Positions 4,830 through 42,270 of a stretch of 64,000 nucleotides of DNA are shown in pieces. The notes under the pieces are model-generated. The model was not told where the DNA came from and searched no databases. It saw only the letters and a program-made list of their open reading frames with translations. Each line of letters opens with the position of its first letter. Within the stretch, counting starts at the first letter, position 1. The stretch is taken from the NCBI GenBank assembly GCA_017303575.1, contig JAFLCL010000015.1, positions 1-64,000 of the forward strand. The letters run 5' to 3'. The translations under genes were made by a program, and so were the position numbers. The stretch comes from Deltaproteobacteria bacterium. Its GTDB lineage: Bacteria; Myxococcota_A; Polyangia; Polyangiales; Sandaracinaceae.

Positions 4830-4844
4830 ACGCTCACGGGATCG

Positions 4845-9264: not shown

Positions 9265-9376
9265 CGCGCCATCGTACGGGATCACGCGGACGCGATCCTC
9301 CGAGACGCGCGCGCGGCCGAGAAAGGGCCCGACGAACGCTCGCGGGGCCCACCCCTTTCCCGTATCCTCGCGCGCC

Positions 9377-10033: not shown

Positions 10034-10084
10034 GTCGCGGGGCCACCCCGGAAACGGCCCAAAACGCGCGGGAAAAATGCCCTT

Positions 10085-10113
10085 TTGACAGGGCGGACGT
10101 CGCCTCGTAGTTT
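10085..10113 (+). promoter_or_regulatory. Sigma70-like promoter for the GNAT-like gene
   Basis: A perfect TTGACA at 10085-10090 is followed after exactly 17 bases by TAGTTT at 10108-10113. The predicted start of transcription would be near 10120, about 60 bases before the ATG at 10183. In such a GC-rich gap a perfect -35 hexamer stands out. Confidence 0.6.
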
Positions 10114-10182
10114 TCCGCGCTTTTTCGCCGGCCCTGCGACCCATTCACGCGTCGCACCCGCGCGCCCGAGGACTCCGAATCC

Positions 10183-11076: not shown

Positions 11077-11102
11077 GCACAGCGGGCCGCGAGGCCCCGC
11101 GC

Positions 11103-12047
11103 TCACGTAGCGATCGAGAAGCCGCCCCACGTGCGGAGGGCGCGAACGAGCACGTCGAAGTCCCCGATCTCGCCGATCTCGAAGCGCTCGATGCCCGTCG
11201 ATCGGAAGATGCCTTCCTTCGCTCCCACGCGATGGATCGAGAGGAATCCATCGACGACGGTGATGCGATCGATCGCGTCGCGGGTGAGCACCTCGTCGTC
11301 GATGGACACGCGCCCTTCGCCCACGCGCAGCGTCTTCTTGCCGGCGCGGAAGCTGGCGTGCCCGTCCTTCTCTTTCTCGGCCTTCGCGCGCTCCCATCGA
11401 ATGGCGCTCCAGCGGGTGATCACGGCGCTCGCGAAGATCCAGTGCTCGCTCTCCTGCGCCCACATCCCGCGGTCGTGACGCATGCCGCTGATCTCGAGGA
11501 GAGGGCGATCCGACGCGTCGCGGAAGGTGACCGTGTAGGTCGTGCCCTCGTAGCCGCCGCCGCTGCTCGCGCTGTTCTCTCGCTCGCGCACGAACAGCAC
11601 CGCCGCGTCGCGGAACCGCATCGCCGCATCGTGACGACGGATCCCGATGGCGGTGTGCTCGTGCACGCCCTCGGTCCCGATGTACGTCGCGCACGGCCGT
11701 CGTCGGGAGAGCGCCCAGAGCCCCGCGAGCGCGGCGAGGCCGAGCACCACGCACGGGATCACGGGATCGATCTGCACGTCGAGCGCACCGAGGAGCGCGA
11801 CCAGCCCCAGGCCGCCGAAGAAGCCGATCATCGCCGCGACCAGCGAGAGGCCCAGCGCGATCATGCGTCGCTGCTTGGCGGGCAGCGGACGCGGGCCGCG
11901 CGTCGTCTGGTTCGACCACGCGCTCACCACGTCACCGATCATCGGATCGGGCCGAATCGGGTACGCGGCGTCGATCACGGCGCGACCGAGGTGGTCGGGC
12001 CAGCTGGGCGCAGGCGCCGCGCGATAGCTCTCGGGATGGCTGTCCAC
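11103..12047 (-). CDS. Hypothetical membrane protein with two membrane segments
   Basis: 314 residues with a GTG start at 12047. A soluble head of about 60 residues is followed by two adjacent hydrophobic segments (about 62-85, MIALGLSLVAAMIGFFGGLGL, and 93-113). The C-terminal 200 residues are soluble and rich in beta-strand patterns (TYTVTFRDASDRPLLEISG, SIDDEVLTRDAIDRITVVDG), resembling a PH-like domain, but I cannot name it. It converges with the gene at 10183 and is divergent from 12110. A longer open frame on the same strand is an antisense shadow of other genes. Confidence 0.6.
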   Translation of the reverse strand: MDSHPESYRAAPAPSWPDHLGRAVIDAAYPIRPDPMIGDVVSAWSNQTTRGPRPLPAKQRRMIALGLSLVAAMIGFFGGLGLVALLGALDVQIDPVIPCVVLGLAALAGLWALSRRRPCATYIGTEGVHEHTAIGIRRHDAAMRFRDAAVLFVRERENSASSGGGYEGTTYTVTFRDASDRPLLEISGMRHDRGMWAQESEHWIFASAVITRWSAIRWERAKAEKEKDGHASFRAGKKTLRVGEGRVSIDDEVLTRDAIDRITVVDGFLSIHRVGAKEGIFRSTGIERFEIGEIGDFDVLVRALRTWGGFSIAT

Positions 12048-12109
12048 ACGAAGAGGATAGGTCAGCCCTCCCCAACCACGAGCCCCCCGCGTTAGTCTCG
12101 CGCCGCCCC

Positions 12110-13696
12110 ATGGTCGCCCGCGTCACAGGTCGCCTCGCCATCCCCGATCGCGACGTCTACGCGAACCTCCTCCGCGACACGCGCGGCCTGCGTCGCGATC
12201 AAGCCTCCGCGCGCGACGCCTGGTACTCGGCGCTCCCGTGGGAACGGAAGGAAGAGACGCTCTTCGAGCTCGAGGCATTGCTCAAGGGCATCGCGTGCTT
12301 CGGCAACCCGCGGAACCATCCGGGGCAGCCCGATGCACGCAGCGCCGTCGCGCAGGACTTCCACGAGCACCTGCGCATCCTCCGCGACGCGAGCTCACGC
12401 GTGGTGCAGCTCACGCGACAGCTCCTCGGCGACAAGGAGCGCGCGTACACGTTCACGCGCTACCTCGAGAGCGTCTTGCCCGAGGACTCGGCGCGCGGGC
12501 GGCTCATCCAGGAGCAGCTCACGCAGGACACGCCCGAAGAGGCGCTGCTCCTGCTCCGCAACGCCTTCGGCCACTTCCTCGATCTGAGCGAAGGCCTCCT
12601 GCGCCTCGGTCGCATCTCGAACCGCATCCACAGCGCCTACCACGGTGTGCTCGTGCGCGAGGTCGGTCGCAACACGTTCTTCAACCCGCTCATGGCGCTC
12701 GAGTTCCGACAGGAGTTCGATCGTATCCGCTCGGTCGAGGTGCTCGATGCCCTGCACTCGATCGAGAGCGAGAGCGGTCACCGCGTCTGCGCGCTCACGT
12801 TCCTGACGCTCTTCCGCGGTCTTCGTTATCTCTCGCTGATCGACCAGTACGCCGCCGAGCCCGCCGCCACGCGCCGCGCGTACGTCGTGCTCGCCGCGCT
12901 CCGCAGCGACGTCCGCACGCTCACCCGCTACCTCGCACGACGCGCCGCCGAGGCGATGGCCGACGGCTTCGAGAGCGAGCTCCTCTCGCTCACCGCGCCC
13001 GAGCTCCTGCGCAGCTACGACGGTCTGGCCGGCGAGGCGTATGGCCTCGTGCGCCTGCGCGGCACGCTCGAGAACCTCGCGAACACCCTGCGCGTGGAGA
13101 TCCGCCGCACGTTCGATCACGATCTTCCCTCGCTCGAGGCGAAGATCGGCGAGCGCGAGCTCGGCCCGCAGATGGTGATCGCGTCGGCCCAAGCGCGGGC
13201 GTCGTTGCACCACGCGATCATCACGCTGTGCGACGAGCTCCGGCCCGGCCTCGTGCCCGAGCTCGAGAAGGACACCACCGCACGACGCGCCGCGAGCGAG
13301 CGCCTGCGCCGCGAGATCTGGATGTTCCAGCGCATCCTCAAGGCCTTCCTCGCCATGAGCGAGAGCTCGCGCGCCGACCCCGATCAGTGGGTGAGCCCCG
13401 CGAGCTTCCAGTTCGTGCGCGACTTCCTCGGCCACTTCCGCGCGATCGGCTACCAGCTGATCCGCAGCCACGACTACGAACGCCTCGATCCCTTCCTCAA
13501 GGCGCTCGACGAGCTTCGCGACGTCGACCTCGTCGAGGGTGCACGCATCCGCAGCGCGATCGAGGAGGGCGCGGCGTTCTCGGACTTCCTGGGCGTCCTC
13601 TTCGAGCGCGTGTCGAACCGAGCCGAGCTCCAGGGCGTGCCCTTCGATCGTCAGGCCGCCGCCGAGATGCTGAAGATCTACCTCGGCCGAACCTGA
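12110..13696 (+). CDS. Large helical hypothetical protein
   Basis: 528 residues, acidic and basic residues evenly mixed, strongly alpha-helical by pattern, without signal peptide or membrane segment. No motif was recognised. Repeated Arg-Glu-Leu heptads (FQFVRDFLGHFRAIGYQLIR, ELLRSYDGLAGEAYGLVRLR) suggest long helical bundles. Its TGA at 13694-13696 abuts the stop of the convergent toxin gene directly, forming TGATCA. It may be lineage-specific. Confidence 0.72.
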   Translation: MVARVTGRLAIPDRDVYANLLRDTRGLRRDQASARDAWYSALPWERKEETLFELEALLKGIACFGNPRNHPGQPDARSAVAQDFHEHLRILRDASSRVVQLTRQLLGDKERAYTFTRYLESVLPEDSARGRLIQEQLTQDTPEEALLLLRNAFGHFLDLSEGLLRLGRISNRIHSAYHGVLVREVGRNTFFNPLMALEFRQEFDRIRSVEVLDALHSIESESGHRVCALTFLTLFRGLRYLSLIDQYAAEPAATRRAYVVLAALRSDVRTLTRYLARRAAEAMADGFESELLSLTAPELLRSYDGLAGEAYGLVRLRGTLENLANTLRVEIRRTFDHDLPSLEAKIGERELGPQMVIASAQARASLHHAIITLCDELRPGLVPELEKDTTARRAASERLRREIWMFQRILKAFLAMSESSRADPDQWVSPASFQFVRDFLGHFRAIGYQLIRSHDYERLDPFLKALDELRDVDLVEGARIRSAIEEGAAFSDFLGVLFERVSNRAELQGVPFDRQAAAEMLKIYLGRT

Positions 13697-14098
13697 TCAG
13701 ACCTCGAGGACGACGAGCTCCGGGTCGAGAGCTCGCAGATCGTCCGGATCGCTCGTCAACACGGCTTGCCTCCGGGAACGAGCGCAGACGACGACGGACG
13801 CGTCGACGACGTCCGAACCCGCACGGGCCGCGAGCAATCGACCGATCGCGCGCGCAGCGATGTCGTCCAGCGACACCGGCTCGTAGTCCGACGTCGCGAG
13901 GAAGCGGGCCAATCGCACCTGCTTGCCCGGGTCACGGAAGACCTGCGCGAGCACGCCTGAGGGAACCGAGAGCCGGGCACCGAGATCGAGCGCCTCGCGC
14001 AACAGAATCGCGGCGTTGCGATCACCGCGCTCGATCGCGATCAGCCCGCCCGCATCGAGCGTCAGGCCCTCGCTCCCGCGGACCGCACGACGCTTCAT
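13697..14098 (-). CDS. PIN-domain toxin of a VapBC-like pair
   Basis: 133 residues. LTLDAGGLIAIERGD (first Asp at 15) is the opening of a PIN domain, SDVVDASVVVCA (about residues 94-105) gives the middle acidic site and VLTSDPDDL near 115 the last, so the four acidic residues of a VapC-type Mg-dependent ribonuclease are in place. It is translated with the upstream antitoxin through an ATGA overlap at 14095-14098. Targets of such toxins are usually RNAs such as tRNA; not known here. Confidence 0.85.
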   Translation of the reverse strand: MKRRAVRGSEGLTLDAGGLIAIERGDRNAAILLREALDLGARLSVPSGVLAQVFRDPGKQVRLARFLATSDYEPVSLDDIAARAIGRLLAARAGSDVVDASVVVCARSRRQAVLTSDPDDLRALDPELVVLEV

Positions 14099-14352
14099 GG
14101 GCGCTTCCGTCGCGTGACACCGACCGCCGCGAGAGAGCGACGTGCCCGCGCTCGCTCGAGGGCGGTCGGAGGTCCGCCAGACTCCTCCAGGATCTCGTCC
14201 AGCACGTCACGCAGCCGCAGCTCGCGCGCGTGCGCTGCGATGGCATCCGCTGCGAACGCGCTCACGGACGTCGCTGCGCCCCGCCGCACCGCAGCCTTCG
14301 CGAGCGCGAGCGTCTCGGGCGGGAGGCTGATGGCGATCTTCACAGCGGTCAT
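14095..14352 (-). CDS. Ribbon-helix-helix antitoxin
   Basis: 85 residues. MTAVKIAISLPPETLALAKAAV is the beta-strand plus first helix of a ribbon-helix-helix DNA-binding domain and SVSAFAADAIAAHARE the second helix; the Arg-rich tail would bind the toxin. It is the first gene of the pair and its stop overlaps the toxin start. Such antitoxins neutralise the PIN ribonuclease and repress their own promoter; repeated TACCG-type words just upstream of the ATG (about 14351-14370) could be that operator. Confidence 0.82.
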   Translation of the reverse strand: MTAVKIAISLPPETLALAKAAVRRGAATSVSAFAADAIAAHARELRLRDVLDEILEESGGPPTALERARARRSLAAVGVTRRKRP

Positions 14353-14437
14353 ACCGCCAGAATACCGGCCGACTGCGGGCCCGCAAGGCCCGCGCGGAGA
14401 AGAGAAGCGCGGAGAGGAGAAGGCGCGGCGCGGCGAG

Positions 14438-15265
14438 TCAGATCGCGATCGACCCGGAGAACACGTGGCGCGCGGGCCCCGTCATCTGGATGCGCTCCTC
14501 GCGCGCGCCGACGACGATCTCGAGCACGCCGCCCGGCAGGTGCACGTCGATCGGCTCGCCACGACGCGCGCGACCGGTCTCGACCGCAGCGACCGCCGCC
14601 GCGCACGCACCGGTCCCGCACGCCTCGGTCCAGCCCGCGCCGCGCTCGTACACGTGAAGCGTCATCGCGCTGCGAGCGCCCTCGCGCATGCGCGCGAAGC
14701 CCACGTTCGCCTTCTTCGGAAAGCGCGGATCGTCTTGGATCGCGGGACCGAGCGCGAGGCGCGCCTCACCGACGTCGTCGAAGAGCACGGCATGTGGGTT
14801 CCCCATCGACACGGCGGTGACGTGGACCATGCGGTCGAGCGCGCGCATCGGCGCATCGATCATCGGCCCATCCGCGCGCACGGGGATCTCGTCGAGCACG
14901 AGGCTGGCGGCGCGCATCGAGACGCTCACGATCGCGGACGCGCCCTGCGAGGAGACGACGTGCGCGCGGTGGGCGCCCGCATCCGTCGCGATCTGCAGGG
15001 GCTCGTGGCCCGCGCCGCGCCGCGCGAAGTGGAAGGCCACGCAGCGCAGGCCATTGCCGCACATCTCGGCGGTGCTCCCGTCTGCGTTGACGACGCGCAT
15101 CGCGGGCTCGGGCTCGCCGACGAACAGCACGCCATCGGCGCCCACGCCGCGGTGGCGATCACAGATCGCGATCACCTCGGGGATCGAGAGCGCGCTCTTC
15201 GGGAGATCGACGACCACGAAGTCGTTGCCGAGGCCCTCGTACTTCTCGAACGCGACCGTTCGCAT
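14438..15265 (-). CDS. dapF: Diaminopimelate epimerase
   Basis: 275 residues, the normal family length. It converts LL- to meso-diaminopimelate, the last epimerisation before lysine and the precursor for peptidoglycan cross-links. The two catalytic cysteines are Cys69 (AEMCGNGLRC) and Cys216 (TEACGTGAC), each inside its family motif. The start at 15265 was chosen because MRTVAFEKYEGLGNDF is the standard N-terminus; the frame extends upstream only as an antisense shadow of the STAND gene. No other lysine or cell-wall gene is adjacent. Cytoplasmic. Confidence 0.97.
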   Translation of the reverse strand: MRTVAFEKYEGLGNDFVVVDLPKSALSIPEVIAICDRHRGVGADGVLFVGEPEPAMRVVNADGSTAEMCGNGLRCVAFHFARRGAGHEPLQIATDAGAHRAHVVSSQGASAIVSVSMRAASLVLDEIPVRADGPMIDAPMRALDRMVHVTAVSMGNPHAVLFDDVGEARLALGPAIQDDPRFPKKANVGFARMREGARSAMTLHVYERGAGWTEACGTGACAAAVAAVETGRARRGEPIDVHLPGGVLEIVVGAREERIQMTGPARHVFSGSIAI

Positions 15266-15382
15266 GGACCCCTTGTGCGCCGGGCGCCCGCGAATGTCGA
15301 GATCGCGCGTGCTCGACCTCGCCGACCTGCCGGCGCTCTGACCTCCACGGCTGGCCTGCACCCGTGCGAGCATGCGACCTCG

Positions 15383-17980
15383 ATGTCGTCCCGAGACGTG
15401 ATCGTCGGTCGTGAGCGAGAGATCGAGGCCTTCACCCGCGCGGTGGAAGGCGGCGCGCGCCTCTTGACCGTCACGGGGCCGGGCGGCGTGGGGAAGTCGC
15501 GCCTCGTGCACGAAGCGCTGACCGCGCTCCGCGAGTCCCACGCCGACATGGTGCCCGTGGTCGAGTGCGCGCTCGGCGAGACCTCGACGCTCGAGGGGCT
15601 CGTCGATCGTGTGGTCGACGCGCTCGGGGGCGCGGGCGCGCGTCGCAAGGACATCACGCGCCTCTTCGCGCAGCGCGCGCCCGTCGTGGTCGTCCTCGAT
15701 CCCTTCGATCGCCTGGTGCCTCACGCGACGCTGCTCTCGGAGTGGCTGCGCGGAACGCCCGCGTTGAGCTTCGTCGCGGTGAGCCGGCAGGTGCTGCGGG
15801 TGCCCGAAGAGGTGGTGCTCGAGGTGCCCGCGATCACCGACGAGGCGAGCGCCGTCGCGCTGTTCTCCGCGATCGCCGAGCGCCACCGTCCCGGCTTCAC
15901 GCTGGGCGAGGCCGATCGCGCCGCCGCGGCAGCGATCGTCCACGAGCTCGATGGCCTTCCGCTCGCCATCGAGCTCGCGGCCTCGCGCATGACGGTGATG
16001 AGCCCACAAGCGCTGCTCCATCGCTTGCGCAGTCACCTCCAGACCAAGGGTCGCTTCGAGGTCCTTCGCCGCGGCGGAGCGGACGGTGCGCGGCACCAGG
16101 CGCTCGAGGCCTCGATCGCGTGGAGCATCGATCTGCTCGGGACACCCGCGCGCGAGACGCTCGCGCAGTGCACGGTGTTCCGCGGTGGCTTCACGATCGA
16201 AGCGGCCGAGGCCGTCGTGCAGCTCGGGGGCGCGAACACCGACGTGCTCGATCTGCTGCAGAGCCTGCGCGAACGATCGCTGCTCACCGTGACCGAGCCC
16301 TCGGGCGATGGCGAGCTCCGGCTTCACCTCGGGCAGAGCGTGCGTGCGTTCGTGGAGCCTTCGCTCACCGAAGCCGAGCGCGACGCTGCGGAGGATCGAC
16401 ACGCGCGCCACTACGTGGAGCGTGCCGAGGCCTGGGGCGCGCAAGGCCGCGAGCGCGACGGCTGGCGCGCGCGCGCGAAGATCGCCGCCGAGCGCGACAA
16501 CCTCCTGGCCGTGGTCGAGCGCATCCTCGGTCGACCGAACGTCAGCTCACGAAGCGCCGACCGTGCGCTCCGCGCCCTCGTGACGCTGGGGCCCGTGCTC
16601 CTCAAGGAGGGCTCGCTCGAGATCACGCACAGCCACCTCGAGCGCGGCCTCGCGATCGCTCAGGGATCGGGCGCAGATCCGCGTCTCCAAGCGCGCGCCC
16701 TGCTCCTGCGCGCCGAGGTGAAGACGCGCGTGGGGGACGTGACGGGTGCGGAGCGCGATCTCGCGGAGGCGATGGTCCTCGCGCACCACACCACGCTCCG
16801 CGACGTGGAGGGTCGAGCGCTCGTCCTCGCGGCGCGACTCGCCATCCAGCGTCGCGACACGGCGCGCGCGGGCCTCGTGCTCGATCGTGCACAAGAGCTC
16901 GCTCGCGAGCACAAGGACGAGCCGCTCGCCGTCGCGTGCCTCGCGGCGCGGGGCTCGCAGCTCGTTCACGCGCGCGACCTCGCGGGCGCGGAGCTGCACT
17001 TCGAAGAAGGGCTCGCGCGCGCCCGTCGCAGCTCGGACGCCTCGGCCGACATCGCGTTCTCTCGGCGGCTCGCGTACCTCGATCTCGCGGCAGGGCGTGT
17101 GGCCGAGGCGCGCGAACGCCTCGAGCAGGCGGCCAAGCTCGCGGAGCGCGAGCACGAGCCTCGCGCCGCGATCTTCGGATGCTTGCCGCTCGCGGTGGCG
17201 CGCGCGCTCGAGGGCGGAGCGACGGAGCGCTTCGTCTCGTCGATGTCGCTGCTCGACGAAGCCGCGCGCGGCGCCAACGACGGAGGCCTCGTCTCGTTCG
17301 AGCCCGTCGTCCGCGGCTTCCTCGGCATCCTCCACGCCGCGCGAGGTGAGCGCGGCGAGGCACGCCTCCTCTTGGGCGAGGTCACGAGCGCGGAGCCCGG
17401 CTCGTCGATCGCCGATCTCGAGATCCTCTTTCTGCTCGGGCTCGCGCGGATCGAGTCGCACGCGAACCGACGTGAGGCCGCGAAGAAGCTGGTGACGCGC
17501 GCGCTCGGTCGCGCAGACGCCGCGATCGACGGCGCGCTCGTCGCGTTCCTCGGCGAGGACCCGCTCGCGCTCGACAGCGCGCAGCGATCACCGCTCGTCT
17601 CGCTGCTGCTGCTCGTGCGCGCGAGCGCGACGCCGCTCGGCAGCGTGCCTCCGCCTCCCGACACGCGACCGAGCCTCACGCTGGGCCCTGCTGCCACGTG
17701 GTTTCGCGTCGCGAGCGAGCCGCGCGTGGATCTCTCGCGCCGCAAGCCGCTGCGCCTGATCCTCGATCGTCTCTCGCGCCCCGAAGACAAGCCAAACCTC
17801 GCGTGGGACGAGCTCCTCGAGGCGGGCTGGCCGGGTGAGCGCATGCGCGCGGACGCCGGCGCGCACCGCGTGCGCGTGGCGGTCTCGACGCTGCGCAAGA
17901 TGGGGCTGCGCGACGTGCTCCGCACCGAGGACACCGGCTACCGGATCGACCCTGCGTACGAGATCCAGCGAACCGAGTGA
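15383..17980 (+). CDS. STAND-type NTPase with C-terminal winged-helix domain
   Basis: 865 residues from ATG 15383. Residues 1-300 form an AAA/NB-ARC-like ATPase: Walker A GPGGVGKS at 32-39, Walker B VVVVLD at 101-106 and the GLPLAIELAA GxP motif near 195. Residues about 380-740 are a helical, TPR-like array of repeated Ala/Leu/Arg helices. The last 95 residues (about 770-865, ending LRTEDTGYRIDPAYE) look like an OmpR-type winged helix with GYRI wing. STAND proteins act as ligand-gated switches; the DNA-binding end suggests a transcription regulator. Usual bacterial STAND regulators (SARP/AfsR, MalT) carry the DNA-binding domain at the N-terminus or as LuxR-type at the C-terminus, so this order is less usual. 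Target genes unknown. Confidence 0.8.
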   Translation: MSSRDVIVGREREIEAFTRAVEGGARLLTVTGPGGVGKSRLVHEALTALRESHADMVPVVECALGETSTLEGLVDRVVDALGGAGARRKDITRLFAQRAPVVVVLDPFDRLVPHATLLSEWLRGTPALSFVAVSRQVLRVPEEVVLEVPAITDEASAVALFSAIAERHRPGFTLGEADRAAAAAIVHELDGLPLAIELAASRMTVMSPQALLHRLRSHLQTKGRFEVLRRGGADGARHQALEASIAWSIDLLGTPARETLAQCTVFRGGFTIEAAEAVVQLGGANTDVLDLLQSLRERSLLTVTEPSGDGELRLHLGQSVRAFVEPSLTEAERDAAEDRHARHYVERAEAWGAQGRERDGWRARAKIAAERDNLLAVVERILGRPNVSSRSADRALRALVTLGPVLLKEGSLEITHSHLERGLAIAQGSGADPRLQARALLLRAEVKTRVGDVTGAERDLAEAMVLAHHTTLRDVEGRALVLAARLAIQRRDTARAGLVLDRAQELAREHKDEPLAVACLAARGSQLVHARDLAGAELHFEEGLARARRSSDASADIAFSRRLAYLDLAAGRVAEARERLEQAAKLAEREHEPRAAIFGCLPLAVARALEGGATERFVSSMSLLDEAARGANDGGLVSFEPVVRGFLGILHAARGERGEARLLLGEVTSAEPGSSIADLEILFLLGLARIESHANRREAAKKLVTRALGRADAAIDGALVAFLGEDPLALDSAQRSPLVSLLLLVRASATPLGSVPPPPDTRPSLTLGPAATWFRVASEPRVDLSRRKPLRLILDRLSRPEDKPNLAWDELLEAGWPGERMRADAGAHRVRVAVSTLRKMGLRDVLRTEDTGYRIDPAYEIQRTE

Positions 17981-17992
17981 TCGACGGGGTCG

Positions 17993-18925
17993 CTAGCGCT
18001 TCAGCGTAGCCTTCGCCGCGACGGCCTCGTCCACCGCACGCGCGTGGGCGGCGCGGTCTTCGGCCGTCAGCACGCGCACGACGACGCTCGCGGCCGCGAG
18101 CCCGAACGTCCCGGTGACGAACGACGCCGAGCCGTCGATGCGCGCGCGCTTGTCGCAGGTGTAGACGCCGTTGTCCTTGTTGGGACAGACGCACACGAAG
18201 CCCTGTCCGTCGTCGTACGAGATCGGCGCGGGCACCGCCTGCTGCTCGTCCGAGAACACAGCGGTGATGCCCGTCGCCGTGCCGCGCTCGACGGCCAGAC
18301 CGTACTGCTTGCGCAGGATGCCGCGTACGTCCCGCGCGAGGCCGCAGCCTTCGGTGTCCGCCAGGTCCGAGACACGGACGCGCGTGGGATCGAGGCGACC
18401 CGCTGCGCCCATCGAGCTCACCACCGGAATCCCTCGCGCGAGGCACTGCGAGAGCAGGTGCGCCTTGGCAGAGATCGAGTCGATGGCATCGACGACGAAG
18501 TCGATCGGGCCACCCAGCACGGCGTCACCGAGGTGCGTGTCCGCCTTGGTGGCCTCGTAGAACTCGAGCACTGGGACGATCGTCGACGTCGGAGAGATCA
18601 AGCGAAGTCGCTCCGCCATGATCTCTGCCTTCGCCTTCCCGACGTTGCCCTTCATCGCGTGCAGCTGTCGGTTGGTGTTGGTCACGCACACGTCGTCGAA
18701 GTCGACGAGCCCCAGCGTGCCGACGGCGCTGCGCGCGAGCGCCTCGGCCGCGAACGAGCCCACGCCGCCCATCCCGAAGATCATCACGCGCGCCGACATC
18801 AAGCGATGCAGGCCCGGCTCGGTGAAGAGGCGCGCGGCGCGATCGAAGCGGCGGTGCGTCTTGTGCGCAGGCTCCGCGTGCACGGAGGTGCTCGCGGGAG
18901 ACGTGTCGGCCATGGGGAGCGGCAT
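17993..18925 (-). CDS. tcdA: tRNA threonylcarbamoyladenosine dehydratase
   Basis: 310 residues from ATG 18925 (a second ATG, 18913, is four codons later). It belongs to the E1-like ThiF/MoeB fold; GMGGVGSFAAEALARS carries the nucleotide loop, and LVDFDDVCVTNTNRQ and VVDAIDSISAK are the next family blocks. TcdA uses ATP to cyclise t6A37 of tRNAs to ct6A, improving decoding of ANN codons. The separation from the STAND gene (convergent, 12 bases) suggests its own promoter, in the 100-base gap with the divergent gene at 19027. Confidence 0.92.
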   Translation of the reverse strand: MPLPMADTSPASTSVHAEPAHKTHRRFDRAARLFTEPGLHRLMSARVMIFGMGGVGSFAAEALARSAVGTLGLVDFDDVCVTNTNRQLHAMKGNVGKAKAEIMAERLRLISPTSTIVPVLEFYEATKADTHLGDAVLGGPIDFVVDAIDSISAKAHLLSQCLARGIPVVSSMGAAGRLDPTRVRVSDLADTEGCGLARDVRGILRKQYGLAVERGTATGITAVFSDEQQAVPAPISYDDGQGFVCVCPNKDNGVYTCDKRARIDGSASFVTGTFGLAAASVVVRVLTAEDRAAHARAVDEAVAAKATLKR

Positions 18926-19026
18926 CGCGCAGTGATAGCAGGACTCGTCGGCGCGCCCTAAGCTCCGCGCATGCTCGTACGAGCCCTTCGTCGTCTCGGC
19001 GTGGTCCCGATGTCGAGAACGTTCTG

Positions 19027-26472: not shown

Positions 26473-31733
<5,261 letters not shown>

Positions 31734-31734
<1 letters not shown>

Positions 31735-33299
31735 CAGCAGCCTCCCGTCGACTCACACCCGTTGACCGCGTTGCCATCGCAGTCGAAACGTCCCTCGACA
31801 CACCCCACCACACGACAGGCCCCGGCGATGCACGCCTGCTCCTGGAAGGTCATCGTGGGACGACAGTCGTTCGAGGCGGGCGCCTCGTCGATGGCGGAGT
31901 CGCAGTCGTCGTCGATGCCGCCGCGTCCCATCACGCAGCGCTCGGCCGCGCCCGGATAGCGGTTCGGATCACGATCATCGCAGTCGCCTCCGCGCGGCGT
32001 GTAGCCGGGGGGCGGCACGCATCCGACGACCACGCCACCGGCGCCTCCGCCATAGCCGTCGCCGTCCTCGTCGCGGAAGTACGCGAAGCTCGCGACCATC
32101 TCGTCCACCGATCCATCGCAGTCGTTGTCGCGTCCATCGCACAGCTCGGCGCCACCGGGCCCGCTCGAAGAGTCGCGATCGTCGCAGTCCGCGGGCACTG
32201 GCGTCGGCGTGCAGCGCGAGTCCGCGATGCGATCGAGGTCGTCGTCCTCGAGATCGCCCGGCGCGATCTCGAAGTCGGCGAGGCCGTTGCAGTCGTCGTC
32301 GCGACCGTTGCAGCGCTCGGCCTGCGCGGGGCTCACTGACGCGAGCGTGTCGTTGCAATCCGTCGCGTAGAGCGACCAGCGGCCCGTCGGGATGGCGCAC
32401 GAGACCGTCGATCGCGACGACGTGCCGAAGCCGTCTCCGTCTTCGTCCGCGTACCACGTCGCGGTGACCGTCGAGTCCGCAGGATCCGGTACGCCGTCGC
32501 AGTCGTTGTCGACGGTGTCGCAGATCTCCGGCAGATCGGGGCTGCGCAACGCGCTGGTGTCGTCGCAGTCGTCGGGCAGCGTGGAGAAGCCGGCGCGCGT
32601 GCCGCACGCCGTCATCGGCGCCATCGGATCGCCGTGCCCGTCGCCGTCCGCGTCGCGGTAGCCCATGACGAGCACACCTTCGTCGATGCGCGTGTCGCAG
32701 TCGTCGTCCGAGCCGTTGCAGACCTCGGTCGCCATCGGGTTCGCGCTACGCGAGGCGTCGTTGCAGTCGTCGCCACACGCCGAGCCGTTGCAGCAGCGCG
32801 CGTCCTGGAAGCCGTCGCCGTCGACGTCGGGACCGAACGTCGTCGCGTCGCAGTCTTCGTCGACGGTCATCGGACGATCGCAGAGCTCGGGCGCGCCGGG
32901 GTTCACCGTCGCGACGGCGTCGTCGCAGTCCTCACCGAACGGCATGCCGCGCGCATCGAGACAGTCGGCGTCGAACACCCCGTCGCCGTCGACGTCGGGT
33001 GGGCGGTTCACGCAGCGACGCAGCTCTTCCGAGCAGAAGTCCGTCGTGCAGTCCAGCATGTCGTCGCAGCGCATCGGGCTGCCCGCGACGCAGAGCCCCT
33101 CCTCGCTGCACGTCTCGTCGCCGTTGCACGCGAGCCCGTCCGCGCACTCGCGATCCTCGCGACACTCGGGGGCTGCATCGAGCGAGGGATCGAAGGCGTC
33201 GGGCGTGAATGCATCGTCGGGCGTCGTGCCCCCGCCGCAACCCGTGGAGCCCGAGACCATGAAGAGAAGGACGGCACAGAAGCGAAGTCTCGACATCAT
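31734..33299 (-). CDS. Short MopE-like DCDD lipoprotein
   Basis: 521 residues from ATG 33299 (second ATG at 33296). Signal ends SGSTGCGGG. It has the Cys head, then the same six DC(D/N)D...DCDG..DE units as the two downstream paralogues, and stops right after a single FDCDGNAVNGCESTGGC knot, as if the longer C-terminal arrays had been cut off. Each unit would present aspartates for Ca2+ or Cu+ style ligands; which metal is not shown by sequence. First of the three MopE genes; its TGA overlaps the next ATG (TGATG). The 52-base gap to the CAP-domain gene upstream allows cotranscription with it. Confidence 0.85.
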
Positions 33300-33351
33300 C
33301 TCGGCAGGGTAACCGAGTCGGCAGCGCGTCGGACAGGTCCCGACCAACGCC

Positions 33352-34002
33352 TCACTGGAAGTTCTGCACCGCCCACACGTCTCCACCCGGCGTCGTGTAG
33401 AAGCCGCACGCGACGCGCGAGAAGCGATCGTTCGTCATGTTGAGGTAGTGGCCGTGCTCGCTGAACGGCTCGCCCGGGCCCTCGTCCCACATCTGCTGCA
33501 GGCATCCGCTGATCGTCTGCGGCACCGATCCCCAGCCCGGACACTCGTTCTGGCCGTAGCCGCCCCCGCAGATCCCGTCACGAAACCCAGCGTGGGGCCC
33601 GCGCCCTTCGCTGTCGTACTGCGCCATCTGATCGGCGCACGCCTCGCCCTCGCGCCAGCGCTGGAGCGGCGGCAGATGCTGGCACTCGCAACGAAACTGG
33701 TTGATGCGTCGCACGCAGTCCTCGGCGGGATCACCCGTCGAGGCCATGACGCTCGGCATGCAGCCCGCGATCGGCGCCATCAGCGGCGTGCCCATCGTGC
33801 AGTCGCCGAGCGGCGCGATGAACGCGTCGGGGCTCGACGACATGAACGCGTCGTCACCGGGCGCGACGGGCGAGTCGCTCGTGCTCGATGCGGCGTCGAC
33901 CGAGGGCGCGCCTGCGGCGTCCTCGTCGCTCGATCGCAGCGTGCCGTCGCACGCAGAGAGAGAAAGGAGAAGAAGCGCGGTCCCGAGGTGCCGTGAGCGC
34001 AT
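33352..34002 (-). CDS. CAP-domain (SCP/PR-1-like) lipoprotein
   Basis: 216 residues from ATG 34002. Lipobox LSLSACDG, then an Asp/Ala/Ser/Pro linker of about 45 residues. The CAP fold is marked by CVRRINQFRCECQHLPPLQR, GRGPHAGF, GQNECPGW and the late HGHYLNMTNDRFSRVACGF, which is the usual GHY/N..N..... position of the second active-site-like His. CAP proteins are secreted and bind sterols, lipids or peptides; enzymatic activity is rare. First gene of the MopE block on this strand and divergent from the beta-oxidation operon. Confidence 0.85.
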   Translation of the reverse strand: MRSRHLGTALLLLSLSACDGTLRSSDEDAAGAPSVDAASSTSDSPVAPGDDAFMSSSPDAFIAPLGDCTMGTPLMAPIAGCMPSVMASTGDPAEDCVRRINQFRCECQHLPPLQRWREGEACADQMAQYDSEGRGPHAGFRDGICGGGYGQNECPGWGSVPQTISGCLQQMWDEGPGEPFSEHGHYLNMTNDRFSRVACGFYTTPGGDVWAVQNFQ

Positions 34003-34188: not shown

Positions 34189-37100
34189 ATGAGCGAGCTC
34201 AGGTACGACGGCAAGGTCGCGGTGGTCACCGGTGCAGGCAACGGCCTCGGCCGCGCGCATGCGCTCGCGTTCGCGAAGCGCGGCGCGAAGGTCGTGGTGA
34301 ACGACCTCGGCGGCAGCCACACCGGCGAGGGCAAGTCGGCGACGGCGGCCGACAAGGTCGTCGCCGAGATCGAGGCGATGGGCGGCAAGGCCGTCGCGAA
34401 CCACGACTCGGTCGAGAACGGCGAGGCGATCGTGAAGACCGCGATGGACGCCTTCGGTCGCATCGACGTGCTCGTGAACAACGCCGGCATCCTCCGCGAC
34501 GTCAGCTTCGCGAAGATGACCGAGCAGGACTGGAACCTCATCGACAAGGTCCACGTCTACGGCGCGTTCAAGTGCAGCCACGCGGTGTGGCCGATCATGC
34601 GCGATCAGAAGTTCGGTCGAATCCTCTTCACCTCGAGCGCAGCCGGCCTCTACGGCAACTTCGGTCAGGCCAACTACTCGATGGCCAAGCTCGGCCTGGT
34701 CGGCCTGATGCAGACGCTCGCGATCGAAGGCAAGAAGAACAACGTCTTCGCGAACGCCATCGCGCCCGTAGCGGGCTCGCGCATGACGGAGACGGTCCTT
34801 CCGCAAGATCTGCTCGATGCGCTGAAGCCCGAATACGTCACCGAGCTCGTCATGTGGCTCTGCAACGAGAAGTGCGAAGAGACCGGCGGCACGTTCGAGG
34901 TCGGCGGCGGCTTCTACGGCAAGCTGCGCTGGGAGCGCACGAAGGGCCGTGTGTTCCGGCTCGGTCGACCGGTGAGCGCGGAGGACATCCAGGCCGGCTG
35001 GGGCGACGTCACCAACTTCGAGGGCGCGACACACCCGCAGAACATCACCGCCGCGCTCGAGCCGATCATGGACAACGTGAAGGCCGGCCCGAGCAAGGGT
35101 GGCAATCAGTTCGTCGACGTCGATCAGGCGCTCGGATACCAGTTCCCCGAGATGACGTCGCGCTACGACGAGCGCGATCTGGCGCTCTACGCGCTCGGCG
35201 TCGGCGCCGCGGAGGATCCCCTCGATGCCAATGACCTCAAGCTCGTCTACGAGCTCAATGGCGAGGGCTTCGTGGGCCTGCCGACGTACGGCGTGGTGCC
35301 GGCGATCAACTGCATCTTCGAGCTCGGCAAGCAGGGCAAGACGGCGCCGGGCATGAACTACGGCCTCGACCGCGTGCTCCACGGCGAGCAGTACCTCGAG
35401 GTGCTGCGCCCCTTGCCGCCCAAGGCCAAGCTCACGCACAAGGCCACGATCAAGAGCATCTACGACAAGGGCAGTGAAGGCGGAAAGAAGGGCGGCGCCG
35501 TCGTCATCACCGCGTTCGAGAGCAAGGACGAGTCGGGTGAGGTGCTCTTCCGGAACGAGGTGTCGACCTTCGTGAAGGGCGCGGGCGGCTGGGGTGGTGA
35601 TCGCGGCCCGGACGAGAAGAACCTGAATGCCAGTCCGGATCGCGCCCCGGACAAGAGCGTCGAGCAGAAGATCCACCAGAACCAGGCCTTGCTCTATCGC
35701 CTCTCGGGCGACTGGAATCCCCTGCACGCCGATCCCTCGTTCGCCAAGGCGTTCGGCTTCGAGAAGCCGATCCTGCATGGTCTGTGCACGTTCGGCTACG
35801 CGGCTCGCCACGTGATCTCGAGCTTCGCGCCCAAGGGCGACGCGCGCCTCTTCAAGAGCATCAAGGTCCGCTTCGCCGATCCGGTGCTCCCGGGCGAGAC
35901 GATCGTCACCGAGATGTGGAAGGACAGCGAGACGAAGATCCTCTTCCGCGTGAAGAGCAAGGATCGCGACAAGGTCGTGATCTCCAATGGCGCCGTCGAG
36001 CTCTACACCGAGATCCCGAAGCCCAAGGCGAAGCCGGCTGCTGCCGCGGCGAGCGCGGGCGGTGGGCCCGTGGTGCCGAATTCGACCGATGTCTTCGCGG
36101 GCATCTCTGCCTTCCTCACGAAGGAAGCGGGCACGGGCGACCGCATCAAGACGGTCTTCCAGTTCAAGCTGAAGAACCCGGACGCCACGTGGACGATCGA
36201 TCTCTCGAGCGGCAATGGCTCGGTCGCTCAGGGCGAGAGCGCCCCGCCCGGCTGCACACTCGAGATCAGCGACGCGGACTTCATGGACATGTGCACCGGC
36301 AAGGCCGATGCGATGAAGCTCTTCACCGGTGGCAAGCTCAAGATCACCGGCAACATCATGGCCAGTCAGAAGCTCGACTTCCTCAAGAAGGTCGACCCGA
36401 ACGACGTGATGGCCTCGGCGCAGAAGCGCAGCGGTGGAAGCGCGGGCGCGGCGGCGGCTGCGACGAGCGCAGAGCCCACCAGCACGGACGTCTTCGGCGG
36501 CATCGCGAAGTACCTCGCGAAGACCGGTGGTCAGGGCGACAAGATCAAGACCGTCTTCCAGTTCAAGCTGAAGAACCCCGACGCGACGTGGACCATCGAC
36601 CTCGCCAGCGGTGACGGAAAGGTCGGTCAGGGCGAGACGGCGGCGCCGGGCTGCACGCTCGAGATCAGCGACGCGGACTTCATGGACATGTGCACCGGCA
36701 AGGCCGATGCGATGAAGCTCTTCACCGGCGGCAAGCTGAAGATCACCGGCAACATCATGGCCAGTCAGAAGCTCGACTTCCTCCGCAAGGTGGATCCGAG
36801 CGACGTGCTGGCGGCCATGAAGGAGCGTGGCGGTGGAGGCGGCGCAGCAGCCGCTCCGGCAGCGCCCGCGGCCTCCGCAGAGCCCACCAGCACCGATGTG
36901 TTCGGCGGCATCTCGAAGTACCTCGCGAAGACCGGCGGTCAGGGCGACAAGATCAAGACGGTCTTCCAATTCAAGCTCAAGAGCCCCGATGCCGTGTGGA
37001 CCATCGACCTCTCGGGTGGCGACGGAAAGGTCGGTCAGGGCGAGACGGCACCTCCCGGCTGCACGCTCGAGATCAGCGACGCGGACTTCATGGACATGTG

Positions 37101-37638
37101 CACCGGCAAGGCCGACGCCATGAAGCTCTTCAGCGGCGGCAAGCTGAAGATCACCGGCAACATCATGGCCAGTCAGAAGCTCGACTTCCTCCGCAAGGTC
37201 GACCCGAACGACGTGCTCGCGTCGATGAAGGAGCGCGTGGGCTCGGCGTCGGCGGGCGGCGGTGGCGGAGGGGCGGCGAAGCCCGCACCCGCATCGAGCG
37301 CTGGCGGCGGCGCGAGCAAGGCCAAGGACATCGCGAAGAAGATCGGCGAGCGCATGGCCGCGAACGCGAACCTCGCGAGCGAGGTCGGCGCGCTCATCGA
37401 GCTGCGCGTGAAGGACCCCGAGGCGATCTTCACCGTCGACCTCAAGAACGGACCGGGCGGCATCAAGGAGGGCAAGGCCGACAAGCCCGACGCGATCCTG
37501 ACGGTGGCCGACGCGGATCTCGTGACGCTCACCACGGGCGCCGAGTCGCTCAAGAGCCTCTACCAGCACGGCAAGGTGCGAGTCGACGGCGACGCGAAGG
37601 TCGTCCGCAAGCTCGCCTTCCTCGAGAAGATCGGCTGA
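34189..37638 (+). CDS. MFE-2-type multifunctional beta-oxidation enzyme with four SCP2 domains
   Basis: 1149 residues from ATG 34189 (AGAGG upstream). Residues 1-300 are a D-3-hydroxyacyl-CoA dehydrogenase of the SDR family (VVTGAGNGLGRAHALAF, Tyr/Lys in NYSMAKLG); about 320-460 and 480-610 are the two hot-dog halves of an enoyl-CoA hydratase 2, the second holding YRLSGDWNPLHADPSFA with its catalytic Asp and His. SCP2 domains follow at about 631-746, 763-880, 898-1014 and 1043-1149. Human HSD17B4 has the same order but one SCP2 domain. Domains 1-3 are nearly identical in DNA; the fourth is diverged. Cytoplasmic. Confidence 0.93.
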   Translation: MSELRYDGKVAVVTGAGNGLGRAHALAFAKRGAKVVVNDLGGSHTGEGKSATAADKVVAEIEAMGGKAVANHDSVENGEAIVKTAMDAFGRIDVLVNNAGILRDVSFAKMTEQDWNLIDKVHVYGAFKCSHAVWPIMRDQKFGRILFTSSAAGLYGNFGQANYSMAKLGLVGLMQTLAIEGKKNNVFANAIAPVAGSRMTETVLPQDLLDALKPEYVTELVMWLCNEKCEETGGTFEVGGGFYGKLRWERTKGRVFRLGRPVSAEDIQAGWGDVTNFEGATHPQNITAALEPIMDNVKAGPSKGGNQFVDVDQALGYQFPEMTSRYDERDLALYALGVGAAEDPLDANDLKLVYELNGEGFVGLPTYGVVPAINCIFELGKQGKTAPGMNYGLDRVLHGEQYLEVLRPLPPKAKLTHKATIKSIYDKGSEGGKKGGAVVITAFESKDESGEVLFRNEVSTFVKGAGGWGGDRGPDEKNLNASPDRAPDKSVEQKIHQNQALLYRLSGDWNPLHADPSFAKAFGFEKPILHGLCTFGYAARHVISSFAPKGDARLFKSIKVRFADPVLPGETIVTEMWKDSETKILFRVKSKDRDKVVISNGAVELYTEIPKPKAKPAAAAASAGGGPVVPNSTDVFAGISAFLTKEAGTGDRIKTVFQFKLKNPDATWTIDLSSGNGSVAQGESAPPGCTLEISDADFMDMCTGKADAMKLFTGGKLKITGNIMASQKLDFLKKVDPNDVMASAQKRSGGSAGAAAAATSAEPTSTDVFGGIAKYLAKTGGQGDKIKTVFQFKLKNPDATWTIDLASGDGKVGQGETAAPGCTLEISDADFMDMCTGKADAMKLFTGGKLKITGNIMASQKLDFLRKVDPSDVLAAMKERGGGGGAAAAPAAPAASAEPTSTDVFGGISKYLAKTGGQGDKIKTVFQFKLKSPDAVWTIDLSGGDGKVGQGETAPPGCTLEISDADFMDMCTGKADAMKLFSGGKLKITGNIMASQKLDFLRKVDPNDVLASMKERVGSASAGGGGGGAAKPAPASSAGGGASKAKDIAKKIGERMAANANLASEVGALIELRVKDPEAIFTVDLKNGPGGIKEGKADKPDAILTVADADLVTLTTGAESLKSLYQHGKVRVDGDAKVVRKLAFLEKIG
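36078..37230 (+). repeat. Three tandem near-identical SCP2-coding repeats
   Basis: The same DNA block, for example GACGCGGACTTCATGGACAT, starts at 36271, 36670 and 37078, giving periods of 399 and 408 bases. Between 36252 and 36383 the three copies differ at only a few bases. Linkers between copies are Ala/Gly-rich and vary in length. Confidence 0.9.
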
Positions 37639-39056: not shown

Positions 39057-39548
39057 ATGACCAGAGCCTTCTTCTTCGCGCTCGCGATCGTGACCGCGAT
39101 CGACGTGAGCGGCTGCTGCTGCTGCTTCGGCGGTGACTGGTCGCAGTTCGCACCCCCGACGACCGACGACGCAGGCGCGGAGGCCGAGGCGCGTCGCCAC
39201 TACGTGGCGCAGGCGCAGGCGCTCCTCGCGCAGCTGGCCGAAGATGCGGGCGGCGCGAGCGGATGCACGAGCGGGGTCGCCGACTTCGCCGCCAGGGTCA
39301 CGGTGGCCGTGATCTCGCGAGGACACGCCGGCTCCGACTCGGCCGCGCAGGTCCAGATCGATCCCGCCGCGTGCTTCACGCGCGTCGTGGTGCTCGTCGT
39401 GCTCACCGAAGGGGTGTGGCACGCGGTGTCGATGGTCGCCGACGCGATCGATGGGCGCACCGTCGCGCTCGGCACCGACCCCGGCTACCTGCTTCAGATC
39501 GACGTGGGGGGCGGTGACTCAGACTTCGGCTCGGACGAGATGTTCTGA
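39057..39548 (+). CDS. Small lipoprotein with a poly-Cys lipobox
   Basis: 163 residues. Hydrophobic N-terminus ends in DVSGCCCCFGG; the first Cys is likely lipidated and the three others may be lipidated too or form disulfides. The remaining domain is Ala/Asp/Val-rich with two further Cys (CTSGVADF, AACFTRVVVLVV). No family recognised. The next gene (the kinase) starts 65 bases after its stop on the same strand. Confidence 0.6.
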   Translation: MTRAFFFALAIVTAIDVSGCCCCFGGDWSQFAPPTTDDAGAEAEARRHYVAQAQALLAQLAEDAGGASGCTSGVADFAARVTVAVISRGHAGSDSAAQVQIDPAACFTRVVVLVVLTEGVWHAVSMVADAIDGRTVALGTDPGYLLQIDVGGGDSDFGSDEMF

Positions 39549-39612: not shown

Positions 39613-41496
39613 ATGGCTCTCGTCGCCACACGTGCCACACGTGCGTCCGTGTCCTCGAAACCGCGACCTGCCCCGGTCGCGTCGAGTGTCCTCGGTCTGT
39701 GCGGTCGCGTGCTCGGTAGCTACCGGCTGATCACCGAGCTCGGGCAGGGCGGCATGGGCACCGTGTACTACGCGGAGCACGTGTCCCTGCCACGTCGGGC
39801 GGCGGTGAAGGTGCTCGGCGACGACGTCGCGCGTGATCCGGATCTCGTGGCTCGCTTCTTCGACGAGGCACGCGCGGCCAATCGCATCCGACATCCGGCC
39901 ATCGTCGACGTCATGGACCTCGGCGAGAGCGATGGCGTCCACTTCCTCGTGATGGAGCTGCTCGAGGGCGAGACGCTGGGCGCTCGCCTCGAGCGCGTCG
40001 AGCGCATGCGTCCCGCGGAGGTCGTCGCGCTCTTCGGCCAGGCGTGCGACGCGCTCGAGGCCGCGCACGAGCGCGGGATCGTCCACCGTGACCTCAAGCC
40101 AGAAAACCTCTTCCTCGCGCGCCATGCCGACGGCGAACGCGTGAAGATCCTCGACTTCGGGATCGCGAAGCTGATCGGCCACGGTGACGTTCGGCGCACG
40201 CGCACGGGCCTCGTGCTCGGGACACCGACGTACATGTCACCGGAGCAGTGCGTGGGCGCGCGCTGTCTCGACGCGCGCAGCGACGTGTACTCGATCGGCG
40301 TGGTGCTGTTCGAGACGTTGACGGGACGGCCCCCGTTCATGTCGGACTCCGCCGGTCAGCTGATCGTCTCGCACGCGTGCGAGGTACCGCCCACGCTGCG
40401 ATCGATCGACGCGACGATCCCCGAGGGCCTCGACGAGCTCGTCGCGCGCACCCTGTCGAAGTCGCCCGACGACCGACCCGGCTCCATGCGCGAGCTGCGG
40501 CTCGCGCTCGAGGCCGCGCTGACCCCCAAGGTCGCGACGCACTTGAGCGGTGCTCTCCGCGGCGCGCGCACGACCAAAGAAGAGGTCGAGCGCATCGAGA
40601 TCGCGCAGACACGCGCGGTGGGCACCCGCCTCCGCGAGATCATCCGCGAGAGGCTCGAGCGAGATCGCCTGCCACTTCCCTCGATGCCTCGCGTCGTGCT
40701 GCGCGCGCTCGATCTCGTGCGCGACGAGTCGGTGGGCCTCGGTCGGGTGGCCGCCGAGCTGGAGGGCGATCCACTGGTGGTGCCCGCGGTGCTCAAGCTC
40801 GCGAACAGTGCGGCCCTCGGGGGCGCGTCGCGGATCACGAGCCTCGAGGCAGCGGTCACGCGCATCGGCGCGAGGCGCCTCAAGACGCTCTTGACGGAGT
40901 GTGCCGCGCGCGAGGTGTTCCGATCGCGCGATCCCGCCGTGGCGAGGGCGTTCCACGCGATCTGGAGCCACTGCATCGCTGTCGGCACGTTGGGGCGTGC
41001 GCTCGCGCGCGGCGAGCCCGTGGCCGGAGACGAGGTCCACCTCGCGGGGCTCCTCCACGACGTGGGCAAGCCCGTCGTCGGCGCGCTCTTGCTCGACACG
41101 GAACGCCAGCTGCTGCGCCAGCTGGGTGTGCCCGTGATGGGTGAGTCGCTGTGGCTGAAGATCATCGACGCGTGCCACGTGGATGTCGGCACCGCGATCG
41201 CGAAGAAGTGGGCACTGCCCGAGCCGATCGCGGCCATGGTGGGGCGGACGCACGATCCCGCTGGGGCGCCCGACGCGATCGAGAGCTGGCTCGGCTACGG
41301 ACACCGACTCGCCGAGCAACGCGCGCTCGGCGCGAGCCCGACGCCCAACGACGACCTCGAGGTCCGTCTCGTCGAGGCGCGACGCGCACGCGGCGGCACC
41401 GTCGAGCGTGAAGACGCCGCGGTCGAGTCACTCATCGAGATCCTCGGCACACGCCCGCGCGCCAAGCGAGACGTGACGCGCACCAAGCGTGGCTGA
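39613..41496 (+). CDS. Ser/Thr protein kinase fused to an HDOD domain
   Basis: 627 residues from ATG 39613; the start is the least certain point. Kinase: GQGGMGTVY at 44-52, Lys66 (AVKVL), HRDLKPEN at 158-165, DFG at 181-183, TPTYMSPEQ at 204-212. From about 340 to 560 is an HDOD domain: PLPSMPRVVLRALDLV, DPLVVPAVLKLANSA, and LAGLLHDVGKPVV at about 477-489. HDOD domains are HD-GYP relatives that mostly lack phosphodiesterase activity and act as signalling scaffolds. A PknB-like kinase with an HDOD tail suggests a signal protein that phosphorylates and scaffolds at once. No transmembrane segment, so cytoplasmic. Confidence 0.9.
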   Translation: MALVATRATRASVSSKPRPAPVASSVLGLCGRVLGSYRLITELGQGGMGTVYYAEHVSLPRRAAVKVLGDDVARDPDLVARFFDEARAANRIRHPAIVDVMDLGESDGVHFLVMELLEGETLGARLERVERMRPAEVVALFGQACDALEAAHERGIVHRDLKPENLFLARHADGERVKILDFGIAKLIGHGDVRRTRTGLVLGTPTYMSPEQCVGARCLDARSDVYSIGVVLFETLTGRPPFMSDSAGQLIVSHACEVPPTLRSIDATIPEGLDELVARTLSKSPDDRPGSMRELRLALEAALTPKVATHLSGALRGARTTKEEVERIEIAQTRAVGTRLREIIRERLERDRLPLPSMPRVVLRALDLVRDESVGLGRVAAELEGDPLVVPAVLKLANSAALGGASRITSLEAAVTRIGARRLKTLLTECAAREVFRSRDPAVARAFHAIWSHCIAVGTLGRALARGEPVAGDEVHLAGLLHDVGKPVVGALLLDTERQLLRQLGVPVMGESLWLKIIDACHVDVGTAIAKKWALPEPIAAMVGRTHDPAGAPDAIESWLGYGHRLAEQRALGASPTPNDDLEVRLVEARRARGGTVEREDAAVESLIEILGTRPRAKRDVTRTKRG

Positions 41497-41580
41497 GCGG
41501 GATCCCCTGCGAATAGACAACGCGCACCCTTCGCATCGGCACGCCGGTCGCGCATGCTCGCCGCCAACGGAGGAGCGCGC

Positions 41581-42270
41581 ATGAGCAAAGGAACGATCAT
41601 CGTCTGTGGACACGGCCCCGGCATCTCGGAGGCCGTCGCACGTCGGTTCGGCAAGGAGGGCTACGCCGTCGCGCTGGTCGCGCGGAACGCCGATCGCGTG
41701 ACGGCAGCAGCGGAGGCGCTGACGAAGGAGGGGATCACGGCGCGGGCCTTTCCCACCGACCTCGGACAGCTCGACATGGTGCGCGGGATGATCCGGGACG
41801 TGAAGAAGGCGCTCGGCCCCACCACCGTCATCCACTGGAACGCACTCTCGTTCGGCGCGAGCGATCTGACCAAGGACGCCGTCGAGTCGCTCGATGCGGT
41901 CCTCCACGTGAGCGTGCACGGCATGATCGCCGCGACCCAGGAGGCGCTCCCCGACCTCGAGGCCGCCAAGGGCTCACTGCTCGTGACGGGAGGAGGCTTC
42001 TGCTTCTACGACCCCAAAGTCGACGGCTTCGCAGTGCAGGTCGGCGCGATGGGCGTCGCCATCGGAAAAGCCGCCCAGCACAAGGCGACGGGCCTGCTCC
42101 ACGTGGCGCTCGCGCCGCGGGGCGTCTACGTCGGCGAGGTCGTGGTCATGGGCTCGGTGAAGGGCACGCCGTGGGATCAGGGCCAGGCCACGCTCGAGGC
42201 GTCGACGGTCGCGCAGCGATTCTGGGATCTGCACACCTCGCGCGCAGAAGCGACGACGAACGTCAGCTGA
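41581..42270 (+). CDS. Atypical short-chain dehydrogenase/reductase
   Basis: 229 residues. The start is supported by GGAGGAG five bases before the ATG; longer in-frame starts lack this. CGHGPGIS at about 9-16 is a variant of the TGxxxGIG loop, and FPTDL and LHVSVHG match later SDR blocks. In the catalytic part the usual Tyr-x-x-x-Lys is missing: only Gly-Ala-Met-Gly-Val-Ala-Ile-Gly-Lys is seen near residue 160, so the Tyr position is not filled. It may bind a nucleotide without normal SDR catalysis. Its stop overlaps the convergent GreA/GreB-like gene in TCAGCTGA. Confidence 0.7.
   Translation: MSKGTIIVCGHGPGISEAVARRFGKEGYAVALVARNADRVTAAAEALTKEGITARAFPTDLGQLDMVRGMIRDVKKALGPTTVIHWNALSFGASDLTKDAVESLDAVLHVSVHGMIAATQEALPDLEAAKGSLLVTGGGFCFYDPKVDGFAVQVGAMGVAIGKAAQHKATGLLHVALAPRGVYVGEVVVMGSVKGTPWDQGQATLEASTVAQRFWDLHTSRAEATTNVS

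Follow-up and report, generated by a model that had tools for sequence, protein, structure and literature searches.

A predicted soluble Ser/Thr kinase-HDOD fusion protein conserved within Myxococcota

The window (the whole 64,000-nucleotide stretch of DNA analyzed here) contains a gene encoding a signaling protein, soluble as judged from its sequence, in which a PknB-like Ser/Thr kinase domain and an HDOD domain are joined in one chain (Table 1). The fusion family is conserved but patchy within Myxococcota, and our tentative preference is to regard the protein as a soluble one-protein switch, with the kinase as the input and the HDOD domain as the output. The two parts are each known, while their combination is apparently undescribed. 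A literature search retrieved no paper coupling HDOD with a protein kinase domain or a serine threonine kinase, none of the HDOD papers, judged by title, points to a kinase fusion, and NCBIfam contains no model spanning both domains.

Domain composition and conserved residues

The region 39613-41493 translates as one uninterrupted 627-aa frame, closed by a TGA stop codon (41494-41496). An in-frame ATG is also present upstream (at 39451), but the start at 39613 is supported by the same-genus orthologue, which begins with a matching MALxATRA. No strongly hydrophobic membrane span was found in the protein (top 19-residue mean 1.34).

Table 1. Features of the kinase-HDOD fusion gene (positions in the window)
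Feature	Position	Strand	Basis or remark
Whole gene, kinase-HDOD fusion, 627 aa	39613..41496	+	Single open frame; orthologues in at least 10 genomes
PknB-like Ser/Thr kinase domain, residues 37-292	39721..40488	+	Pfam PF00069, 156.9 bits; catalytic motifs all intact
Activation-loop T196-R-T198	40198..40206	+	T196 invariant in 11 fusions; aligns with PknB VTQT segment
Variable linker, residues 293-354	40489..40674	+	Low conservation, variable length
HDOD domain covering the entire profile, residues 355-549	40675..41259	+	Pfam PF08668, 127.5 bits; structure model; homology to 3HC1
LLHDVGK, residues 480-486, HD dyad H482-D483	41050..41070	+	HD replaced by RD in one orthologue (L073)
E497-R498, subfamily signature	41101..41106	+	Residue table of clade versus other HDODs

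The window originates from a Myxococcota assembly (9.4 Mb) in which HDOD matches occur in four frames, with a kinase on the 39613-41496 frame only. This assembly is fragmented (540 contigs), which would favor the reading that two genes were joined by chance or by assembly; its probability is practically nil, since it is refuted by the orthologues. At least 10 other genomes carry the same fusion in one open frame (36-73% identity), and a frame split, which the preliminary description had named as a possible refutation, is therefore excluded. Moreover, the kinase and HDOD halves are both under purifying selection: comparison with the orthologue of the same-genus genome G001 gave pN/pS values of 0.28 for the kinase and 0.32 for the HDOD domain, versus 0.67 for the N-terminus and 0.80 for the C-terminal tail.

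The kinase motifs had initially been described as all intact, which is borne out by the motif table and by the Pkinase match (cut-off 31.7 bits), covering positions 1-255 of the 263-position profile. The protein contains a GQGGMGTV glycine loop, K66, E85, HRDLKPEN, DFG, and SPEQ, and the catalytic residues K66, E85, D160, N165, and D181 are invariant in all 11 aligned fusions. PknB is the closest solved structure to this domain (E 5e-53); the threonines of its VTQT segment are known phosphorylation sites. Pfam detected no PASTA repeats in the fusion protein, and the model of the PASTA-domain PknB/Stk1 family (NF033483) scored 300 bits versus a cut-off of 450, the match being limited to the kinase.

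The HDOD match spans the entire profile (1-196 of 196) and lies far above its cut-off (22.9 bits). Sequence comparison likewise pairs the region with solved HDOD structures, 3HC1 being the nearest (E 7e-16). Together these results exclude that it is only a weak helical match, and the assignment of the C-terminal half as an HDOD domain with LLHDVGK holds. Residue H453 is kept in 11 of the 12 fusions, H482-D483 in 11-12, and H522 in all 12. In the orthologue from G083 (L073), the HD site is degenerate, with LLRDIGR in place of LLHDVGK and WEES in place of WxHC, and therefore HDOD catalysis would not be essential family-wide. Judged from these residues, most fusions but not all keep the site intact; catalysis may occur, and would not be required across the fusion family. 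Two hallmarks of related proteins are absent: those of HD-GYP c-di-GMP phosphodiesterases (no GYP in the sequence, and HD lost in one orthologue) and, by Pfam, the Response_reg match of HDOD response regulators. Residue E497 occurs in 26 of 26 members of the HDOD clade described below; it does not figure among the residues common in 82 other HDODs. R421/R422 of the window protein are not conserved.

A structure model built from a four-row alignment is usable over the HDOD domain (residues 361-570, blocks mostly pLDDT 70-87) and poor over most of the kinase (residues 121-310, block means 24-47), and for this reason no inter-domain contact is claimed. Within the linker, residues 322-349 are predicted as a single long helix that continues into the HDOD domain (block pLDDT 52-69).

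Distribution and origin of the fusion

The fused genes number 13 in 11 Myxococcota genomes when both genes of G458 and of G046 are included, at least 10 of these genomes being other than that of the window. Full-length relatives are present in G001, G006, G008, G035, G017, G091 (same contig as L036), G046 (two), G083, G404, and G458 (two; genome of L037), and are absent from the same-family genomes G002, G003, and G007. A full-length profile (E <= 1e-130) recovered the fusion in 6 of 379 Myxococcota genomes, including the window's own and G373, in which it is truncated. A further scan, centered on locus L062, again fell within Myxococcota and gave the hits of G035, G006, and G017 once more. 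In G373 the kinase frame continues until contig C109 ends (match 3944-5077; locus taken ends at 5078), and the HDOD that matches it begins at one end of contig C33; with both parts at contig ends, this is probably one fused gene split by assembly.

The other long HDOD proteins checked, about 40 of Myxococcota and about 40 drawn from Planctomycetota and Acidobacteriota (about 80 in all), lack a kinase. Most of these bear REC or unrecognized N-terminal regions instead, in agreement with the earlier view of Pkinase-HDOD as an unusual architecture, which may also occur elsewhere than in the Myxococcota and the draws surveyed. Two HDOD proteins of 760-790 aa (L285 4264-6630 (+) and L137 1097-3382 (+)) carry about 500 N-terminal residues without a Pfam family; L137 falls in the fused clade of the HDOD tree, and L285 is near that clade by score. 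In the plasmid collection, no record spanned 80% of the fusion query, and the HDOD matches were mostly labeled HDOD, none being labeled Ser/Thr kinase; the four inspected are stand-alone proteins of about 275 aa.

A tree of 108 HDOD domains placed the 12 fused rows, that of the window among them, together in one clade of 26 (SH-aLRT 99), the remaining 14 members of which are non-fused. A closer tree of this clade, whose base it does not resolve and some of whose inner branches are weakly supported, did not reject a single fused group (AU p 0.57). The fused kinases formed one group (SH-aLRT 94, not starred) in a tree of 64 kinases; the group consisted of ten rows without G006 and G008, and it was set against background kinases picked by similarity and not from a full kinome. 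Because the fused HDODs fall in one clade, the fused kinases form one group, and the approximately 80 other long HDODs are kinase-free, one single ancient fusion is the simplest and likely reading of the sequences. The single HDOD clade and single kinase group, with one origin not rejected, further suggest that the two halves have stayed together.

Gene neighborhoods of fused and stand-alone HDODs

Six of the 14 non-fused clade HDODs have a REC-REC gene immediately upstream (L102, L103, L104, L182, L183, and L192), the REC-REC identity being backed by Pfam for three of the six loci. About 40 other HDOD loci, each 4-6 kb long, showed no double-receiver gene adjoining HDOD. At L104 a CheA-type gene comes next after the REC-REC/HDOD pair, and the stand-alone HDOD lies within a large chemosensory/REC gene cluster with CheA (7773-18994). 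As regards the fused genes, those of G006 and G008 sit between two histidine-kinase/REC hybrid genes, multi-REC genes of G083 are located at least 2 kb from the fused gene, and one fused gene of G046 has just upstream of it a stand-alone HDOD gene that belongs to the same clade.

The neighbors of the fused gene in the window encode an MFE-2/SCP2-like protein, a lipid-transfer thiolase, a small Cys-rich protein, and an SDR. In the MFE-2-like protein (34189-37635, +), SDR, hydratase, and MaoC domains precede an unusually long SCP2 tail, made up of four SCP2-type sterol-carrier domain matches, and an alkyl-sulfatase-C-like end. The Cys-rich ORF (39057-39548, +; 163 aa, GCCCCFGG), probably a lipoprotein, ends 64 bases upstream of the fused gene and matched no family. 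In the window the SDR gene (41554-42267, +) follows the fused gene on its downstream side, and in G001 it lies upstream (L093 6400-7086 (+), 68% identity), which is a local rearrangement. Further away, two adjoining genes (26476-33386, -) contain six-fold MopE-type metal-binding repeat matches, one of them also having ASH/Hydin-like Ig domains.

A conserved operon partner was considered and rejected. Comparison of the orthologues' neighborhoods, as proposed in the preliminary description, revealed genes shared with the same-genus G001 and not with other genera, and because of this lack of conservation no partner was identified. Nor does anything tie the gene to c-di-GMP, motility, or predation, the processes suggested there; its neighbors in the window are lipid-metabolism-like and surface-protein genes, with no motility genes among them.

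Possible role of the HDOD domain and relation to known systems

According to the switch reading, some cytosolic cue or partner would cause the kinase to dimerize and autophosphorylate at T196, perhaps also at T198, and phosphorylation of the kinase, linker, or HDOD domain would alter HDOD binding; alternatively, HDOD-bound partners would be brought to the kinase. On this view, a single HDOD output module once served by a two-component input would have come under a PknB-like kinase. The intact kinase motifs and the presence of T196 in all 11 aligned fusions are in favor of this reading, as are the purifying selection on both halves, the single HDOD clade and kinase group, the REC-REC genes in front of six non-fused clade members, and the histidine-kinase/REC hybrids beside the fused genes of G006 and G008; the degenerate HD site of G083 and the lack of gene neighbors shared between genera count against it. 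We infer that the kinase is active, that its activation loop is phosphorylated, and that the signal passes from it to the HDOD domain as the output. What leads us to prefer this direction is the analogy to REC-linked HDODs and to the REC-REC neighbors of the closest relatives. These neighbors are encoded by genes separate from the HDOD, so that adjacency does not show which is the input and which the output. The fusion looks like a rewired version of known signaling parts. It is a speculative possibility that a single fusion event in Myxococcota made a REC-REC-served HDOD module Ser/Thr-kinase-driven, thereby creating a new class of Hanks-type kinase/HDOD (possibly second-messenger) cross-over.

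C-terminal sensor domains (PASTA and others) are common on bacterial Ser/Thr kinases. The HDOD domain might likewise sense a small molecule (e.g., c-di-GMP or another nucleotide) or a protein, and switch the kinase, then the output, on or off; we rate this serious rival as rather unlikely. The modeled helix 322-349, leading from the linker into the HDOD domain, would be compatible with it, and SadB of Pseudomonas fluorescens, composed of YbaK and HDOD domains, is a reported c-di-GMP binder (PMC6543031), though whether YbaK or HDOD is its binding domain is unsettled. What speaks against a sensory role is that receiver proteins, as a rule inputs, are encoded alongside relatives of the clade.

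Docking and hydrolysis are both less likely. It is improbable that the HDOD domain recruits kinase substrates or scaffolds complexes, neither sensing nor signaling itself: an Arg pair of the Pseudomonas HDOD protein PSPTO_4229, needed for its overexpression phenotype, makes predicted protein contacts (PMC11813219), and the HD site of one fused orthologue (L073) is degenerate, but H453, H482, D483, and H522 are near-invariant in the other fusions, which points to a conserved pocket, more than a generic docking surface would call for. The retention of H453, H482-D483, and H522 in nearly all of the 12 fusions could indicate a working metal-dependent phosphohydrolase or phosphodiesterase under kinase control, and the HDOD domain of DVU0330, with HD kept, is weakly active on bis-pNPP (PMC4114195). 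Such an enzyme is nevertheless very improbable, given the lack of a GYP motif, the LLRDIGR and WEES sequences of L073, the description of HDOD as non-catalytic (PMC6543031), and the example of GsmR, which is devoid of phosphatase or phosphodiesterase activity (PMC4114195).

The fusion has some general interest, since HDOD is a common bacterial signaling domain, here linked to an easily assayed kinase. Belonging to a clade whose relatives are encoded alongside receivers, it offers a direct way to ask what role HDOD plays when the input changes, and it enlarges the already large kinase repertoire of myxobacteria by a domain partner that is apparently uncatalogued; its practical weight is modest.

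Among known systems, the kinase half resembles PknB-type Hanks-type kinases, being an RD kinase whose activation-loop threonines occupy the corresponding positions and having PknB nearest among solved structures, but it carries a C-terminal HDOD domain in place of PASTA repeats. Some HDOD proteins have been linked to motility or c-di-GMP, with no kinase fusion among them (PMC6543031, PMC11813219, PMC4114195). The fusion shares a full-length HDOD domain with the stand-alone HDOD proteins, the response regulators GsmR and DVU0330, MmoQ, and SadB, being homologous to 3HC1, 3M1T, 3I7A, and MmoQ, and it has the HD dyad in common with DVU0330; it differs from them in having a Ser/Thr kinase instead of REC or YbaK and in belonging to a distinct clade with the E497 signature. 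The REC-REC and HDOD gene pairs of Myxococcota represent the same HDOD clade, in which, in contrast to the fusion, the HDOD is encoded by a separate gene behind a double receiver and has no kinase domain.
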